Positions 57,558-64,000 of a stretch of DNA of 64,000 nt are shown here, piece by piece. The DNA lies in the NCBI RefSeq assembly GCF_036967205.1, contig NZ_CP146022.1, positions 5,146,001 through 5,210,000 of the forward strand, written 5' to 3'. A model generated the notes under the pieces. That model was not told the origin of the DNA and made no database searches. It saw only the letters and a list, made by a program, of their open reading frames with translations. The position numbers were made by a program, and so were the translations under genes. The stretch's first letter is position 1. Every line of letters starts with the position of its first letter. This stretch comes from Streptomyces sp. Q6. GTDB lineage: Bacteria > Actinomycetota > Actinomycetes > Streptomycetales > Streptomycetaceae.

Positions 57558-57659
57558 ACAAGGAGCTTTTGCCCGAAACCTCCATATCCCTCACCGAAAT
57601 GGGTGATTGATCGGGTGTCATACTAAATTGCCCAAGCTACGGGCTATTTGGGATCCAGA

Positions 57660-58187
57660 GTGAGCCACATGGACGACATGGACCGCCGATTGCTGTCGGC
57701 ACTGCGCGACTGTGGCACCGACCGGCGCGTGGCGGCCACCGCGCGCGCCCTGTCCTGGGCCGGTGAACACGGGGCGCTCTGGCTGGCGGCGGGCCTGGTG
57801 GGCGCCGCCGCCGACCGCGAACGCCGCTCCGCCTGGCTGCGCGGCACCGCACTCACCGCCGGCGCGCACCTGGCGAGCATGGGCGTGAAACGCGTCGTAC
57901 GCAGGCCCCGCCCCGAAGCGGGCATCGGCGTCGAGACCCCTCGTACGGACCGCGGGCCGGCACTCCTTCCCAGCTCGCACGCCACCTCCGCGGCGGCCGC
58001 GACCGTCGCCTACGGCGCGCTGCGCCCGGTCGGCGCCCACGTCGTACCGCCCCTCGCCGCCGCCATGTGCGTCTCCCGGATGGTCGTCGGCGTGCACTAC
58101 CCGTCCGACGTCGCGGCGGGCGCCGCACTCGGCGCCCTCACCGCACGCCTGGGCGCACGCTGGATGACCGGGGGAGCGGCCCGATGA
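57660..58187 (+). CDS. PAP2-superfamily phosphatase (DPA-pathway type)
   Basis: This ~175-aa membrane phosphatase has the three PAP2 motifs: KRVVRRPRP, LLPSSHATSAAA and SRMVVGVHYPSDVAAG. In the mycobacterial pathway a PAP2 protein (Rv3807c) is thought to dephosphorylate decaprenylphosphoryl-5-phosphoribose made by the UbiA enzyme. Here the UbiA gene overlaps its stop (ATGA). Start uncertain: GTG 57660, ATG 57669 or TTG 57648; I chose 57660. Confidence 0.85.
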   Translation: MSHMDDMDRRLLSALRDCGTDRRVAATARALSWAGEHGALWLAAGLVGAAADRERRSAWLRGTALTAGAHLASMGVKRVVRRPRPEAGIGVETPRTDRGPALLPSSHATSAAAATVAYGALRPVGAHVVPPLAAAMCVSRMVVGVHYPSDVAAGAALGALTARLGARWMTGGAAR

Positions 58188-59152
58188 CCGAACGCACCGA
58201 ACGCACCGAACGACTCGCCGTCCTCGACAGGCCACGCGAAGCCCGGCGGACCGCACCACGCGTCACACCGCTCGCACTGCCCGCCGGACTGCTCAGGACG
58301 GCCCGCCCACGCCAATGGGTCAAGAACGTCCTCGTCGTCGCCGCGCCCGCCGCCGCCGGAGAACTCTTCTCCCGCCACGCCCTCCACCAAGTCACCCTGG
58401 TCTTCGCCCTGTTCACGGCCGCCGCCTCCGCCGTCTACCTCGTCAACGACGCCCGCGACGCCGACGCCGACCGCGCCCACCCCGTGAAACGCAACCGCCC
58501 GGTCGCCGCCGGACACGTCCCCGTACCCGTCGCCTACGCCGTCGGCGGCGCCCTCGCCGTCCTCGCCCCGGCCGCCGCCGCGATCCTCTGCAACCCGGCC
58601 ACCGCCGCCCTGCTGACCGCCTACGTGGCCATGCAACTCGCCTACTGCGTCAGCCTCAAGCACGTCCTCGTCGTCGACCTCGTCGTGGTGACCACCGGCT
58701 TCCTGATGCGCGCGATGATCGGCGGACTCGCGCTCGACATCCCGCTCTCGCGCTGGTTCCTGATCACCACCGGCTTCGGCGCCCTGTTCATGGTCTCCGC
58801 CAAGCGCTACTCCGAAGCGGTCCAGATGGCGGGCAAGGACGGCGCGACCCGCGCCCTGCTCACCGAGTACACCACCGGCTACCTGCGCTTCGTCTGGCAG
58901 TTGGCGGCCGGCGTCGCCGTCCTCGCCTACTGCCTGTGGGCCATGGAGGAAGGCGGCGTCGCACGCAGCAGCCTGCTGCCCTGGCGCCAGCTCTCCGTGG
59001 TCGCGTTCCTCCTCGCCGTCCTGCGCTACGCCGTCTTCGCCGACCGGGGCACCGCCGGAGAACCCGAGGACGTCGTCCTGCGCGACCGGGCCCTCGCCGT
59101 GATCGGACTCGTCTGGATCGCCATGTACGGACTCGCGGTCGCGGACTGGTGA
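58184..59152 (+). CDS. UbiA-family prenyltransferase, decaprenyl-phosphate phosphoribosyltransferase-like
   Basis: This 322-aa multi-pass membrane enzyme has RPRQWVKNVLVVAAPAAAGE in the Rv3806c style. The aspartate-rich motif is YLVNDARDADADRAHPVKRN, and a second conserved block reads VSAKRYSEAVQMAGKDGA. In mycobacteria this enzyme transfers 5-phosphoribose from PRPP to decaprenyl phosphate, the first step towards DPA. It is coupled to PAP2 upstream and GtrA downstream and divergent from dprE1-dprE2, which together match the DPA set. Confidence 0.9.
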   Translation: MTERTERTERLAVLDRPREARRTAPRVTPLALPAGLLRTARPRQWVKNVLVVAAPAAAGELFSRHALHQVTLVFALFTAAASAVYLVNDARDADADRAHPVKRNRPVAAGHVPVPVAYAVGGALAVLAPAAAAILCNPATAALLTAYVAMQLAYCVSLKHVLVVDLVVVTTGFLMRAMIGGLALDIPLSRWFLITTGFGALFMVSAKRYSEAVQMAGKDGATRALLTEYTTGYLRFVWQLAAGVAVLAYCLWAMEEGGVARSSLLPWRQLSVVAFLLAVLRYAVFADRGTAGEPEDVVLRDRALAVIGLVWIAMYGLAVADW

Positions 59153-59160
59153 GGCACCCC

Positions 59161-59616
59161 ATGCGCGAACGCCTCAGACGACTGGGCCCCGAACTGCTCG
59201 GCTTCGCGGCCGCCGGAGTCTGCGCGTACGCCGCCGACCTGGGCCTCTTCATCTGGCTGCGCGGGCCCGTCGGCATGGACCCGCTCACCGCCAAAGCCCT
59301 GTCGTTCGTCGCCGGCTGCTCCGTCGCCTACGTGGGCAACGCCCTCGGCACCTACCGGCGCAAGACCGCCCAGGTGTCACGACTGCGCCAGTACGGCGTC
59401 TTCTTCGCGGTCAACGTGGCGGGCGCGCTCGTCCAGTTGCTGTGCATCGCCGTCTCCCACTACGGCCTCGGCCTCACCTCGCAGCGGGCCGACACGATCT
59501 CCGGCGCGGGCATCGGCATGGCACTGGCCACGGTCCTGCGGTTCTGGGGTACCCGGACCCTGGTCTTTCGCACGGGACCTCGGACGCACTACAGGGTGGG
59601 GTCATGGACTGGCTGA
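59161..59616 (+). CDS. GtrA family membrane protein
   Basis: This 151-aa protein has four membrane helices (LLGFAAAGVCAYAADLGLFI, KALSFVAGCSVAYVGN, FAVNVAGALVQLLCIAV, ISGAGIGMALATVLRFWGT). GtrA proteins move or help use polyprenyl-phosphate sugars; Rv3789 beside dprE1 in mycobacteria is of this family. ATG 59161 has TGAGG upstream; GTG at 59149 overlapping the UbiA stop is an alternative. It overlaps YihY by 13 bp. Confidence 0.88.
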   Translation: MRERLRRLGPELLGFAAAGVCAYAADLGLFIWLRGPVGMDPLTAKALSFVAGCSVAYVGNALGTYRRKTAQVSRLRQYGVFFAVNVAGALVQLLCIAVSHYGLGLTSQRADTISGAGIGMALATVLRFWGTRTLVFRTGPRTHYRVGSWTG

Positions 59617-60512
59617 AGAATCTTCCCGTCATCGGGCCGCTCGTCGTCCGCCTGATGCGGACCCACGCCTGGCAGGCGTACGAGCGTCTCGACGAGGTCA
59701 AATGGGCACGGCTCGCGGCCGCGATGACCTTCATCAGCTTCCTCGCGCTGTTCCCCCTGCTCACTGTGGCCGCCGCCGTCGCCGCGGGCACACTCAGCAC
59801 GGCCCAGCAGCAGAAACTGGAGGACCAGCTCAGCGACCAGGTCCCGGGCATCTCCGACCAGCTCGACATCGCCTCCCTCGTCGACAACGCGGGCACCATC
59901 GGCCTCGTCGCCGGCGCCCTGCTCCTGTTCACCGGCATCGGCTGGATCGGCTCCATGCGGGACTGCCTGCGCGACGTGTGGGAGATGCCCGACAGCGAGG
60001 AGAACCCGATCCTGCGCAAGGTCAAGGACGCCGGCGTCCTCGTCGGACTCGGCGCCGCGGGACTCGCCTCGGTCGCCGCGTCCACCTCGGCGTCCACCGC
60101 CGTCGGCTGGACCGCGGACCGGCTCGGCATCGACGAGAACGGCTGGGGCGGCGTCCTGCTCCAGGTGGCGGCCTTCGCGATCGCGGTGCTCGCCGACTTC
60201 CTGGTCCTGACCTACGTCCTGGCCCTCCTGCCCGGAGTGCACCCGCCACGACGGGACCTGGTCATCGCGGCCCTGATGGGCGCCGCCGGATTCGAACTCC
60301 TGAAACTGCTGCTCGGCGGCTACATGAAGGGCGTCGCGGCCAAGAGCATGTACGGCGCGTTCGGCACACCGGTCGCCCTGCTCCTGTGGATCAACTTCAT
60401 GGCGAAGCTCGTACTGTTCTGCTCGGCGTGGACAGCCACCCACAAGAAGGAGTCCGCGGCTCCCGGAGCGGCGGACCCCGAAGAGGAAGCGGCGGCGCCG
60501 CCCGTCGACTGA
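59604..60512 (+). CDS. YihY/virulence factor BrkB family membrane protein
   Basis: This 302-aa protein has about six membrane helices. Its start is typical of the family (AAAMTFISFLALFPLLTVAA, then TGIGWIGSMRDCLRDVWEMP), and the block MYGAFGTPVALLLWINFMAK follows near the C-terminus. An acidic Ala/Pro/Glu tail ends the protein. Role unknown; despite the old name it is not an RNase. ATG 59604 lies within the end of GtrA. A hairpin spans its stop and that of the convergent carboxypeptidase. Confidence 0.9.
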   Translation: MDWLKNLPVIGPLVVRLMRTHAWQAYERLDEVKWARLAAAMTFISFLALFPLLTVAAAVAAGTLSTAQQQKLEDQLSDQVPGISDQLDIASLVDNAGTIGLVAGALLLFTGIGWIGSMRDCLRDVWEMPDSEENPILRKVKDAGVLVGLGAAGLASVAASTSASTAVGWTADRLGIDENGWGGVLLQVAAFAIAVLADFLVLTYVLALLPGVHPPRRDLVIAALMGAAGFELLKLLLGGYMKGVAAKSMYGAFGTPVALLLWINFMAKLVLFCSAWTATHKKESAAPGAADPEEEAAAPPVD

Positions 60513-60535
60513 CGGCGCCCCGCCCCGTCAGTCGT
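60507..60535. terminator. Terminator hairpin between YihY and carboxypeptidase genes
   Basis: CGACTGACGG (60507-60516) pairs perfectly with CCGTCAGTCG (60526-60535). It overlaps both stop codons and serves both convergent genes. Confidence 0.75.
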
Positions 60536-61760
60536 TCGTCCGCAGCGGCCACTTCTTGCGGACCACGAACACCGCACCCGCCAGGAGCACCAGCACACCA
60601 CCGGTGATCGCCAGCGCGATCCCGATACCGCTGGAGCCACCGGACGTCGACACCGCCGCGTGCGCGGCCGGCTTCGCGGCGGGACCAGCGTCACCCGTGG
60701 GACTCGACGCCCCCGCGGCCGGCGACTCGGTCCCCTCGGCCCCGACGAGCCGCCCCACCGGAGTGACCTTGCCGTCCGCCGCGAAACCCCAGTCGAGCAG
60801 CCGCGCGGTCTCCTTGTAGACGGCGTGCGACTCCTTGCTGTTCTGCGGGGTCATCACCGTCACGAGCAGCACCTTGCCGTCGCGCTGGGCGACGCCCGTG
60901 AACGTGGCGCCCGCGTTCGTCGTGTTGCCGTTCTTCACCCCCGCGATGCCCTTGTACGGGGAGAGGTCGCCCTCGCCGGTGAAGAGCCGGTTGGTGTTCT
61001 GGATCTCGAAGGTCTCGGTCGTCTTCCCCTTCTTCTGCTTCTTGGGGAGCTTCGCCGTGACCGTCGAGCAGTACTCGCGGAAGTCGCCGTTCTGCATACC
61101 GGAGCGGGCGAACAGCGTCAGGTCGTACGCGGACGAGTACTGGCCCTTCTCGTCGTAGCCGTCGGGGGTGACCACATGCGTGTCCTTCGCCCCCAGCTCG
61201 TCCGCGTGGGCCTGCATGTCCGAGACGGTCTGCGGAACACCGCCGTTCATCGCGGACAGCACGTGCACCGCGTCGTTGCCGGACCGCAGGAAGACACCGA
61301 GCCACAGGTCACGGACGGTGTACGTGTACTCCTCCTTGATGCCCGCGACGCTGGAGCCGGTGCCGACGCCCTGGAGGTCCGACAGCTCCACCTTGTGCTT
61401 CTGCGTCTTCGGGAACTTGTGCAGGAGCGTGTCCGCGAACAGCATCTTCAGCGTGCTCGCCGGGGGCAGCCGCCAGTGCGCGTTGTGCGCGGCGAGCACC
61501 TCGCCCGACTCGGCGTCGGACACGATCCAGGACTTCGCCGTCAGCTCCTTGGGCAGCACGGGGGCGCCCGCCCCCAGGTTCACCTGGGTGCCCGGCTTGC
61601 CGAGCTGCGCACCACCGACCGTCGACATCCGAGCCGGGGGCTTGTCGGCCGCGGCCGCGGGAGCCGTCGCCGAGAGGGCGAGCCCGGAGGCGCTGAGCGC
61701 GACGGCGGCGGCGGTGACCGCGGACTTCTTCAAAAAATACGACGCATGGGTGGCAGGCAC
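60528..61760 (-). CDS. D-alanyl-D-alanine carboxypeptidase (DacA/DacC type PBP)
   Basis: This 410-aa serine DD-peptidase trims the terminal D-Ala of peptidoglycan. After a signal peptide (AAAVALSASGLALSATAPAA), the S11 domain shows SxxK in PPASTLKMLFAD, SxN in FLRSGNDAVHV and the third box as IAGVKNGNTTNAG. A C-terminal membrane anchor (IGIALAITGGVLVLLAGAVF) and a short basic tail follow. I start it at GTG 61760; the longer open frame upstream crosses non-conserved sequence. From memory its orthologue in S. coelicolor neighbours the SCO4848 gene, as here. Confidence 0.92.
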   Translation of the reverse strand: MPATHASYFLKKSAVTAAAVALSASGLALSATAPAAAADKPPARMSTVGGAQLGKPGTQVNLGAGAPVLPKELTAKSWIVSDAESGEVLAAHNAHWRLPPASTLKMLFADTLLHKFPKTQKHKVELSDLQGVGTGSSVAGIKEEYTYTVRDLWLGVFLRSGNDAVHVLSAMNGGVPQTVSDMQAHADELGAKDTHVVTPDGYDEKGQYSSAYDLTLFARSGMQNGDFREYCSTVTAKLPKKQKKGKTTETFEIQNTNRLFTGEGDLSPYKGIAGVKNGNTTNAGATFTGVAQRDGKVLLVTVMTPQNSKESHAVYKETARLLDWGFAADGKVTPVGRLVGAEGTESPAAGASSPTGDAGPAAKPAAHAAVSTSGGSSGIGIALAITGGVLVLLAGAVFVVRKKWPLRTND

Positions 61761-61869
61761 GGACGTGAACGTACATGTACCCGGCCCGTAAGTCTCCGCC
61801 GAGGTGTTCTGTGTCTCCTTGTCCCCACCCCGGCGGCGGTGCGCGATACCCGCTGGCGATATTGAACGC

Positions 61870-61953
61870 ATGAAGCTCAGCCGCCCCGTCTCCTGGTTCC
61901 TGCTCGCCTTCGGGGTGTGGAGCTGGTTCATCTGGATCACTTTCTACGTGTGA
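61870..61953 (+). pseudogene. 5' remnant of a small SCO4848-like membrane protein, cut by element integration
   Basis: Only 27 codons remain: MKLSRPVSWFLLAFGVWSWF, then IWITFYV and TGA. This matches, from memory, the N-terminus of the ~75-residue Streptomyces membrane protein (SCO4848 in S. coelicolor) that carries the phiBT1 attB site. In the intact protein the sequence continues after IWITF with VKNLVKD. Here it diverges right after TGGATCACTTTC and ends two codons later. The rest should lie at the other end of the integrated element, beyond the window. Confidence 0.85.
61933..61941. mobile_element. Hybrid attachment-site core (attL or attR) of a phiBT1-type element
   Basis: TGGATCACT at 61933-61941 is the reverse complement of AGTGATCCA, the 9-bp core I recall as shared by phiBT1 attB and attP. 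To its left is host gene sequence, to its right non-host sequence leading to the integrase 46 bp later. Identity with the host gene may run three bases further (TTC). The exact crossover needs the other junction. Confidence 0.82.
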
Positions 61954-61998
61954 CTAATTGCTGGCGCTTCAACGACACGGAAGAGCAGGTGAGAGGCC

Positions 61999-63741
61999 AT
62001 GACTCCCTTCGTCTCCCCTGTGGGAGCCGAGCATCTGGACACGGTGCGGGTGGCTGTCTACGCACGGCAGTCCACAGCCCGCCCGGACTCCTCCGAGGCG
62101 TCCCCGGAAGCGCAGCTGGCGTCCGGCCAGGCGCTGGCCGCGAGCCGGGGGTGGGAGGTGGTTCACACCTTCAAAGACGTCGGAAGGTCCGGTTGGGATC
62201 CACAAGTGGTCCGTCCGGCTTTCGAGAACCTCATGGCCGCCGTGCGCGCGGGCGAGGTCGACGCCGTGGTGGTCAACGAACTGTCCCGGCTGACCAGGCA
62301 GGGCGCACACGACGCCCTGGAGATCGACAAGGAGTTCAAGAAGTACGGTGTGCGGTTCGTCTCCGTCCTCGAACCGTTCCTCGACACCTCGAACCCGATC
62401 GGCGTGGCGATCTTCGCGCTGATCGCGGCGCTCGCGAAGCAGGACAGCGACATCAAGGCGGAACGCCTGCGCGGAGCCAAGGACGAGATCAGGGCGGTCG
62501 GCGGCCGGCACTCCAGCTCCGCGCCGTACGGCATGCGGGCGGTCCGCGAGAAGATCGGCAACCTTGTCGTCTCCGTCCTGGAGCCGGACGAGGACAACCC
62601 GGACCACATCGCGATCGTCGAGCGCATGGTGGAGATGTCGTTCGCCGGAATCCCCGACAACAGGATCGCGACGACGCTGGAGTCAGAGGACGTACCGGCC
62701 CCGGGGGAGGCCGAGCGCCGGGCGACGGAGAAGCGCATGAGCTCCATCAAGAAGCGCCGTGTGTCGCACGACGACAGCCCCATCCGGTGGCGAGCCCAGA
62801 CGGTCCGCTGGATCCTCTCCCACCCGGCCGTCGGAGGCTTCGCGAGCGAGCGCGTGAAGCGGGGCAAGGCGTACGTGAACGTGATCGCCCGGGATGAGGG
62901 CGGCGCACCCCTGACACCTCACCGGGGCATTGTTGCGGGCGCCAGGTGGCTCGCACTCCAGGAGAAGCGAAACAAGCGCACCAAAGCCAACCGGCAGCCC
63001 GGCGGTGAGGCGACACCGACTCTCCTCAGCGGTTGGCGCTTCGCGACCTGCGAGGTCTGCACGGGTTCCGTGGGCCAGAGCAAGAACAACGGCGGCCAGG
63101 ACTACTACATGTGCGCCAACCCGAAGGGCCATGGCGGGCTGAGCATCAAGCGCAAGGACGCCGACGACCACGTGGCCCGCTCGGTATGGGCGCGCCTGAC
63201 CACGGCGGACCCGGACAACGACGCGGACAGGGAGTGGCTCGCGCAGGCGGCACTCCGGTTCGCGCTTCAGCGCGATCTCTCCGGAGTCCAGGAGGAACGG
63301 CGAGAAACGGAAGCCCACTTGGAGCACGTCCGCGACTCCATCACCGAACTCCAGGCCGACCGCAAGGCGGGCGTCTACCGAGGCCGCGACGAACTGTCGA
63401 TGTGGCGCGCGACGATGGAGCAGTACCGGACCTTCGAGGACCAGTGCACGGCCAGGCTTGAGGTTCTGAACGAACAGACCGCCGCAGCGATCCAGGTCCC
63501 GACGGAATGGCACGAACCGGGGGAGGACCCGTTGGGCCCCGGCTCGCCCTGGGCGACGTGGGATGTGTTCAAGCGCCGCGAGTTCCTCGACCTCTTCCTT
63601 GAGGGCGTCTCGGTCGGCCCCGGCAGGGACCTGGAGACCCGGAAGTACATCGCCGTAGAGGACCGGGTGACGCTCAACTGGCGGAGCCTTGAGTCGGACG
63701 ATGACCACGAGGACGACGAAGAGACTCTGGCCGCCCTCTGA
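61999..63741 (+). CDS. int: Large serine integrase, phiBT1 type
   Basis: This 580-aa large serine recombinase has an N-terminal catalytic domain with the nucleophile Ser25 in VYARQS and the block NELSRLTRQGAHDALEIDKE. LEPFLDTSNPIGVAIFALIA and AKQDSDIKAERLRGAKDEI follow. The recombinase domain includes WRAQTVRWILSHPAVGGFA. A zinc-ribbon follows (CEVCTGSVGQ, YYMCANPKGHGG), then a coiled-coil region and a C-terminal DNA-binding part. Sequence and order match the phiBT1 integrase closely from memory, and the insertion site agrees. ATG with GAGAGG upstream. It should catalyse attP x attB integration, with excision needing a directionality factor. Confidence 0.96.
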   Translation: MTPFVSPVGAEHLDTVRVAVYARQSTARPDSSEASPEAQLASGQALAASRGWEVVHTFKDVGRSGWDPQVVRPAFENLMAAVRAGEVDAVVVNELSRLTRQGAHDALEIDKEFKKYGVRFVSVLEPFLDTSNPIGVAIFALIAALAKQDSDIKAERLRGAKDEIRAVGGRHSSSAPYGMRAVREKIGNLVVSVLEPDEDNPDHIAIVERMVEMSFAGIPDNRIATTLESEDVPAPGEAERRATEKRMSSIKKRRVSHDDSPIRWRAQTVRWILSHPAVGGFASERVKRGKAYVNVIARDEGGAPLTPHRGIVAGARWLALQEKRNKRTKANRQPGGEATPTLLSGWRFATCEVCTGSVGQSKNNGGQDYYMCANPKGHGGLSIKRKDADDHVARSVWARLTTADPDNDADREWLAQAALRFALQRDLSGVQEERRETEAHLEHVRDSITELQADRKAGVYRGRDELSMWRATMEQYRTFEDQCTARLEVLNEQTAAAIQVPTEWHEPGEDPLGPGSPWATWDVFKRREFLDLFLEGVSVGPGRDLETRKYIAVEDRVTLNWRSLESDDDHEDDEETLAAL

Positions 63742-63751
63742 CGCCCAAGCC

Positions 63752-63790
63752 AAGCCCCGGTAGTCCCTTTCCGGGCCGCCGGGGCTTTCT
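63752..63790 (+). terminator. Terminator after the integrase
   Basis: AAGCCCCGG (63752-63760) pairs with CCGGGGCTT (63779-63787), followed by TCT. A good intrinsic terminator directly after the int stop. Confidence 0.75.
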
Positions 63791-64000
63791 GATGCCCGCA
63801 CACGGAGTGGGCGGGGCCCTTCGGCGGACCGAGTGCCCGCTCTCTCGCAGCTCTGCCCGTGCACCACGCGCGGGGCGCACTTCGGTCTCGCGATGCCTGC
63901 CGGGGCTGCGGTGGTCGCGCGACGCCGCCACCCGTCAGCCGGTCCGGCGGCGCGAGCACTGAGCGGGACGACTCCCCGGCGGCCCCGTCCGTGCGCTTCC
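63791..64000. other. Window end inside the element, no supported gene
   Basis: About 210 bp of GC-rich DNA with no family-like reading frame on either strand. It may be a promoter region for the next element gene. Confidence 0.4.

Follow-up and report, generated by a model that had tools for sequence, protein, structure and literature searches.

A probable small prophage remnant at the phiBT1 site of Streptomyces sp. Q6 and the inverted spare copies of the target gene carried by its relatives

Streptomyces genetics makes standard use of the phiBT1 site for docking DNA. The site was once taken as neutral, but a delay in sporulation was reported later, and phiBT1 vectors placed there have been reported to delay development through the downstream gene SCO4849 (PMC7460540, PMC13346255). 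In Streptomyces sp. Q6 (genome G000) an integrase gene stands at this site directly behind the cut 5' end of a small membrane-protein gene, and the locus raises the question of what has entered there and what became of the gene that was cut. The DNA studied, hereafter the window, is the whole 64,000-nucleotide stretch G000:C1:5146001-5210000, and plain positions count from its first letter.

The left flank of the junction is formed by a D-alanyl-D-alanine carboxypeptidase gene (60528..61850, minus strand, start approximate; PF00768, E 1.3e-36). It is followed by the 5' remnant of the small membrane-protein gene (61870..61953, plus strand), which runs from the ATG at 61870 through 27 codons (MKLSRPVSWFLLAFGVWSWFIWITFYV) to a stop codon at 61951-61953, its final codons being element DNA. 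The attL core TGGATCACT, compared with 48 element-free loci and with phiBT1 attP, lies within this remnant at 61933..61941 (+), and the crossover dinucleotide AC of the left junction is at 61939-61940. An integrase-side attP arm together with the integrase leader, similar in other elements, occupies 61941..61998 (+) and leads into the gene of a large serine integrase of 580 aa (61999..63741, +), whose start is 45 bp past the stop of the 5' remnant. The remainder of the window (63742..64000, +) is the non-coding right part of the element, which extends beyond the window.

The integrase reading frame is open and carries Resolvase and Recombinase domains. Of 50,697 phage records, that of the phiBT1 integrase matches best, at 63.8% identity and 97% coverage, the next different phage reaching 28.0%, and the phiBT1-type integrase proposed in the preliminary description was thus borne out. 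The phiBT1 core that had been placed at the cut also held: the exact host core pattern is present in 272/392 genomes of the genus, a count in which at least three (G000, G346 and G291) match inside a broken 5' piece, and the small membrane-protein gene was matched in 379/392 Streptomyces genomes. Considering this distribution of both gene and core, together with the phiBT1-like integrase, the cut in the gene is real rather than a chance resemblance. Comparison of the 48 element-free loci places the integration site in the phiBT1 core within an SCO4848-type gene, where the equation of the target with SCO4848 rests on core, description and literature, the S. coelicolor DNA not having been aligned by name. 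At E <= 1e-60 the integrase was detected in 21/392 genomes, seven of which have an integrase at least 70% identical (G000, G371, G346, G385, G224, G333 and G322) and 14 one that is 36-46% identical.

The second core that the preliminary description expected further to the right is present. A search of the genome with the end of the window returned a second copy of the gene's 5' part, 86% identical, at C1:5210136, and here an 80-codon hybrid gene (G000:C1:5210137-5210379, +) contains the core TGGGTGACTTTC with its crossover AC at C1:5210206-5210207, which puts the right junction 206 bp past the window end. From crossover AC to crossover AC the insert measures 2,267 bp and holds the integrase gene and non-coding DNA only; head, tail and replication genes are absent from these 2,267 bp, and the cargo that had been predicted between the junctions did not materialize. 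A metallophosphatase gene (PF00149) lies 9 bp 3' of the hybrid gene, and host genes continue from there. We conclude that a small prophage remnant lies at the Q6 locus rather than one end of a large island. Ahead of the hybrid gene, an inverted stretch of 33 bp (G000:C1:5210024-5210056) was recognized by sequence comparison as the tail of a spare copy of the same gene, and a phage-type promoter sits between this tail and the hybrid gene. As we read the sequence, this new promoter and new 5' codons are fused in frame to the host gene in Q6. The 27-codon remnant of a disrupted gene described earlier is real, but the gene was not simply lost, a complete hybrid standing at the right junction.

Relatives of the element possess a second, full-length copy of the target gene in inverted orientation, which we call the spare. 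Among the 16 loci with integrase relatives in named Streptomyces that were first surveyed, 14 showed the inverted copy, 11 the 5' remnant and seven the host 3' remnant, and the complete layout (L030, L036) consists of carboxypeptidase (-), 5' remnant (+), integrase (+), full-length copy (-), 3' remnant (+) and metallophosphatase (+). The two loci without a copy were L037, where the prophage exceeds the fetched stretch, and L039, which is near a contig end, and on a wider look both genomes proved to contain the spare. Sorting the genes by strand gave 87 divergent from the carboxypeptidase (including the Q6 hybrid and one duplicate), 22 on the same strand and hence inverted, nine that could not be sorted and four loci without a full-length gene (L037, L039, L174 and L131, in which the spare is split over two frames); L081 (identical to L072 and from the same genome) and L132 (a second copy of L032) were left out, and the set of host genes used for comparison consists largely of the query's best matches, not of a random sample. 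Full-length inverted copies were found in 23 loci besides Q6, 22 by the carboxypeptidase strand and L164, one of the nine unsortable cases, by the metallophosphatase strand.

Element size is approximately 2.2-2.3 kb in L036 and L034 and 3.4-8.3 kb in the others with a whole integrase, right ends being estimates wherever the host 3' remnant is absent; in S. wedmorensis the spare adjoins the host 3' remnant. The exact spare core pattern was detected in 12/392 genomes, and a spare-type gene or part of one in at least 15/392 (these 12 plus G000, G333 and G223). Among the 14 distant integrase loci (L096-L109, 34-44% identical), self-comparison over up to 20 kb showed only short local repeats, a weak comparison that revealed the spare in one of three known spare loci (L110-L112) and whose span a 40-kb prophage exceeds. 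In L042 (~16.5-18.2 kb; L112, ~15.1-16.9 kb) the host 3' remnant is accompanied by a second, inverted integrase fragment, which measures 179 bp and has 94% identity to the first, as if there had been two insertions or one rearrangement.

A whole prophage with a spare is found in S. natalensis ATCC 27448 (L037, G447), where the 5' remnant and the inverted spare are 41 kb apart (41,414 bp core to core), a length close to that of phiBT1 (41.4 vs. 41.8 kb). The spare is positioned at the right end of this prophage, and its core reads TGG TCT TGG GTG ATC TGG ACA ACC TTC GCG AAG AAC. Among six prophage proteins compared with PHROGs, a terminase large subunit, a major head protein, minor tail proteins, an HNH endonuclease and an exonuclease were identified, and 11/51 predicted ORFs match the phiBT1 genome, with identities of 64% for the integrase, 47% for the DNA polymerase, 40% for the primase and 48% for the exonuclease. 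Because both ends are common to them, the family would be a phage lineage of which the small elements, including that of Q6, are remnants. The spare protein had no match in the phage collection, phiBT1 genome included; in IMG/VR patterns matched and none was confirmed; and in plasmids the only match (39.7%) was on a 1.35-Mb Arthrobacter record. Searching IMG/VR with the integrase yielded one contig, which does not differ from the S. natalensis prophage in the stretches compared.

The Q6 hybrid is made up of both gene types. Its codons 1-23 differ from the L030 and L036 spares at 0/69 bases (best host 0.10), whereas its codons 25-80 are nearer to host genes (best host 0.077 vs. best spare 0.216). 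At the 15 diagnostic sites, 8/8 up to nt 69 are spare-type and 7/7 from nt 72 are host-type, and the switch falls at the crossover AC, between nt 69 and nt 72. In a comparison of Q6 with L030, a direct match of 67 bp (91%) is immediately adjoined by an inverted one of 84 bp (94%), the two overlapping by 2 bases. We read this scar as the trace of an inversion at the core in which the middle of the spare and the attR phage arm were lost. The hybrid pattern occurs in 1/266 genomes, that of Q6 alone.

Both junctions, the hybrid, the scar, the spares of the relatives and the whole prophage with its spare are direct observations, and the explanation that we favor, at a probability of roughly 0.8, is that the Q6 element is a deletion remnant of a phiBT1-related phage that carried an attB-altered inverted spare, half of which flipped at the AC in Q6. 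A temperate phage related to phiBT1 would enter the phiBT1 attB in the conserved Streptomyces membrane-protein gene while holding, at the end that becomes attR, an inverted spare of its target gene with its own promoter and ribosome site. After integration the spare would replace the broken gene in its role, prophage genes would decay first and the integrase thereafter, and the spare would remain. In Q6, an inversion would have brought the spare promoter and first 23 codons up to the host 3' part, with the join at the crossover dinucleotide, and would thereby have restored a whole gene at its original position, 9 bp ahead of the metallophosphatase gene, while the spare's middle and the attR phage arm were lost and the 33-bp inverted tail was left behind. 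As attR is lost in Q6, normal excision should be impossible. The spare and the hybrid are both predicted to be functional.

Perhaps the spare is altered at attB so that the phage's own integrase does not attack it, and this is the weakest point of the account. The AC crossover corresponds to nt 70-71 of the gene, the core reads ACT TTC in all 48 element-free loci (L048-L095, 47 genomes), and codon 24 is ACT in 78/85 host genes and ACC in 19/20 spares. In an alignment of 85 host and 22 spare genes over 75 codons (225 nt), five differences are nearly fixed, i.e., at more than 85% within each group, namely at nt 52, 53, 60, 72 and 77. These are all in or next to attB, and they include a two-base change within serine (AGC to TCN). 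The minimal attB of phiBT1 has been given as 36 bp (PMC5937489), which would be nt 53-88 if centered on the AC. Permutation of the excess of host/spare over within-group difference gave p 0.018 for codons 18-30, which cover attB (6/63 windows were as high), p 0.007 for codons 16-28, p 0.003 for codons 13-27, a window picked after viewing the table, and p 0.16 for codons 19-29. We place moderate confidence in an excess at attB, the result depending on the window chosen.

These differences may equally have arisen by donor inheritance, drift or codon use with no selection for escape from the integrase, an explanation to which we give slightly under even odds. The clustering of all five nearly fixed differences within nt 52-77 of the 225 nt, with a two-base serine change among them, speaks against it. 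On the other side, the spares form one clade in the whole-gene tree (support 100/99), so the differences may date from one ancestor, and the Thr codon ACC is common in G+C-rich genomes, where Thr ACT is rarely used. The phiBT1 integrase is also tolerant of many attB changes, accepting changes inside the 9-bp core in Streptomyces and integrating at sites 27-48% identical to attB, given a GT core (PMC5937489). Resistance of the spare may be partial or absent, since the spares retain the AC/GT dinucleotide and the flip implies that the spare core recombined once. The wider proposal would be that of a phage lineage that breaks a gene and rescues its host with an attB-altered spare used poorly by its own integrase and by rivals, upon which the host becomes dependent and the prophage may decay, the gene being left inverted in the locus, with phage-type genes in at least 15/392 genomes, one per species, and with the native direction restored by the recombination site in at least one strain. 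We advance this proposal tentatively and would sooner doubt than endorse it, our estimate being kept low by the tolerance of the phiBT1 integrase for many attB changes (PMC5937489).

With regard to the flip, we infer that the integrase made the inversion, either directly or via a second phage copy followed by attL x attR. Serine integrases are described as pairing attP x attB, or attL x attR with a directionality factor, and no others (PMC3783163), and under these rules a direct inversion between attR and the spare core would be irregular. A regular route can be drawn on paper, in which a second phage copy would enter the spare core and the new attL and old attR would invert the piece to give the hybrid. 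For either route the spare core must have been open to recombination at least once, an argument against complete resistance. Alternatively, the spare and the host 3' remnant could have given rise to the hybrid by ordinary homologous recombination or gene conversion, not at the integrase site. In L036 and L030 they form inverted repeats separated by approximately 100 bp, repeats of this kind can invert with no integrase involved, and an attR x attB-type reaction is not regular for serine integrases (PMC3783163). However, the switch is at the AC, with which the host 3' remnant opens and the homology starts, and a crossover in the shared codons 25-75 would leave spare-type codons where 7/7 sites are host-type, so that we consider this origin unlikely. 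Far less probable still is that the element simply brought a forward replacement 5' end and promoter in the manner of SXT at prfC, with neither spare nor inversion: the right junction does have this form, in that a new promoter and new 5' codons precede the host 3' part, but the spare's last 33 bp are inverted before the promoter, the promoter region matches that of the spares in inverted order and the copy is inverted in 23 other loci, and we reject it on account of the inverted tail and the scar. The view of the preliminary description, that the window catches one end of a large mobile element with its cargo to the right, had the left junction and integrase as they are and could point to bigger versions elsewhere (~3.4 to 8.3 kb, up to 41.4 kb), but is left with practically no probability, being ruled out by a second junction and a complete gene just past the window, 2,267 bp away with only the integrase between and the metallophosphatase and further host genes next.

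The remnant of a phiBT1-related phage that we favor lies in Q6 in the orientation opposite to that expected for phiBT1. In the alignment of the integrase-side arms, L032 reads TGGATC-AC-TTTCCATATG and phiBT1 TGGACA-GT-GATCCATGGG, and since the two dinucleotides are complementary, integration into the same attB should take the opposite direction; that the central dinucleotide sets the direction has been established for Bxb1 and phiC31 (PMC3783163). phiBT1 presumably integrates antisense, and an antisense RNA that spans the site in three species might drive the integrase (PMC3765725). The Q6 integrase is in the sense orientation, 45 bp behind the 5' remnant, and might be driven by the host gene's own promoter. 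It should also be noted that codon 24 is kept as Thr ACT in 78/85 host genes and that the antisense RNA covers this site in three species (PMC3765725); a DNA or RNA signal may hold the host codon in place.

With a dN/dS of 0.16 in 231 pairs, against 0.18 in 400 sampled pairs of host genes, we judge the spares to be under purifying selection. The integrase is reduced to a fragment or missing from the fetched stretch in nine loci whose spare is full-length (L043-L045 and L125-L130), and host remnants are strongly decayed or absent in L034 and L040. In L126 (G023) and L127 (G259) a spare-type gene stands on the carboxypeptidase strand, with no match to either integrase or metallophosphatase in 16 kb, and these loci would represent an old relic or the lineage that the spare was taken from. 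A single origin of the spares is strongly indicated by the whole-gene tree and is unsettled without codons 13-28, where the spares grouped in just 39% of bootstrap trees and a single clade was not rejected (p-AU 0.39). Integrase and upstream-flank identities disagree in L032/L033 (97.2% and 81.0%) and in L030/L039 (75.7% and 86.5%), which points to separate arrivals of the elements, while over all 66 pairs the two identities correlate (rho 0.39), and part of the spread may thus be vertical.

Host genes and spares are also preceded by different leaders. A GATAC-type motif was detected in 71/86 host rows (one a duplicate), 12 nt before the start codon in 70/71, and it lies 41-43 nt upstream of the start in 19/22 spares; a ribosome-site-like stretch precedes 22/22 spares vs. 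7/86 host rows. In the host genes, the spacing of 12 nt between this GATACT-type -10 motif and the start codon suggests a leaderless message.

Among known systems, phiBT1 (Lomovskayavirus BT1) shares the target gene and core with the Q6 element and has a 63.8% identical integrase, but its genome is without a match to the small protein, and GT replaces AC as the central dinucleotide on the aligned strand, hence the opposite integration. Synthetic cleave-and-rescue gene drives disrupt a gene while providing a recoded version meant to escape the enzyme that makes the break; as these are synthetic and nuclease-based, the likeness is one of logic only. Elements that restore the gene they enter are known, namely IMEVchUSA3 at dusA and SXT at prfC (PMC8409611), and as in Q6 a new 5' part is joined to the cut host gene. 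These differ in being forward 5'-end replacements and in not being phages, whereas relatives of the Q6 element carry a full-length inverted spare and the forward form would have come later via inversion. The phiBT1-based pNG vectors of Gonzalez-Quinonez et al. 2016 supply SCO4849 behind the SCO4848 promoter (PMC7460540, PMC13346255), and at the same site thus carry host DNA to cancel the harm of integration; however, they are man-made and provide the downstream SCO4849, not a spare of SCO4848. Searching open-licence papers with a few phrases, which is no proof of absence, we recognized no element equipped with a copy of the gene it targets and found no description of a phage-carried full-length inverted spare altered at attB.

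What makes the locus interesting is the spare gene and the way in which it would have been put back at the crossover site. The existence of spares suggests that the gene, or its operon, is important enough to be worth carrying for a virus, and that the spare outlives the virus. If the account is true, it can be tested how an integrating element breaks a useful gene at little cost to the host, natural attB variants become available for work on integrase specificity, and the family provides a natural example of a core dinucleotide that reverses the direction of integration.

Two minor observations concern the neighborhood of the site. Genes for PAP2, UbiA and BrkB family membrane proteins stand in a row beside it (57648-60512 in the window; Pfam) and are perhaps a cell-envelope lipid cluster. 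A second carboxypeptidase-like frame, 62% identical to the flanking one, lies approximately 8 kb downstream at L004:12135-12983 (-).
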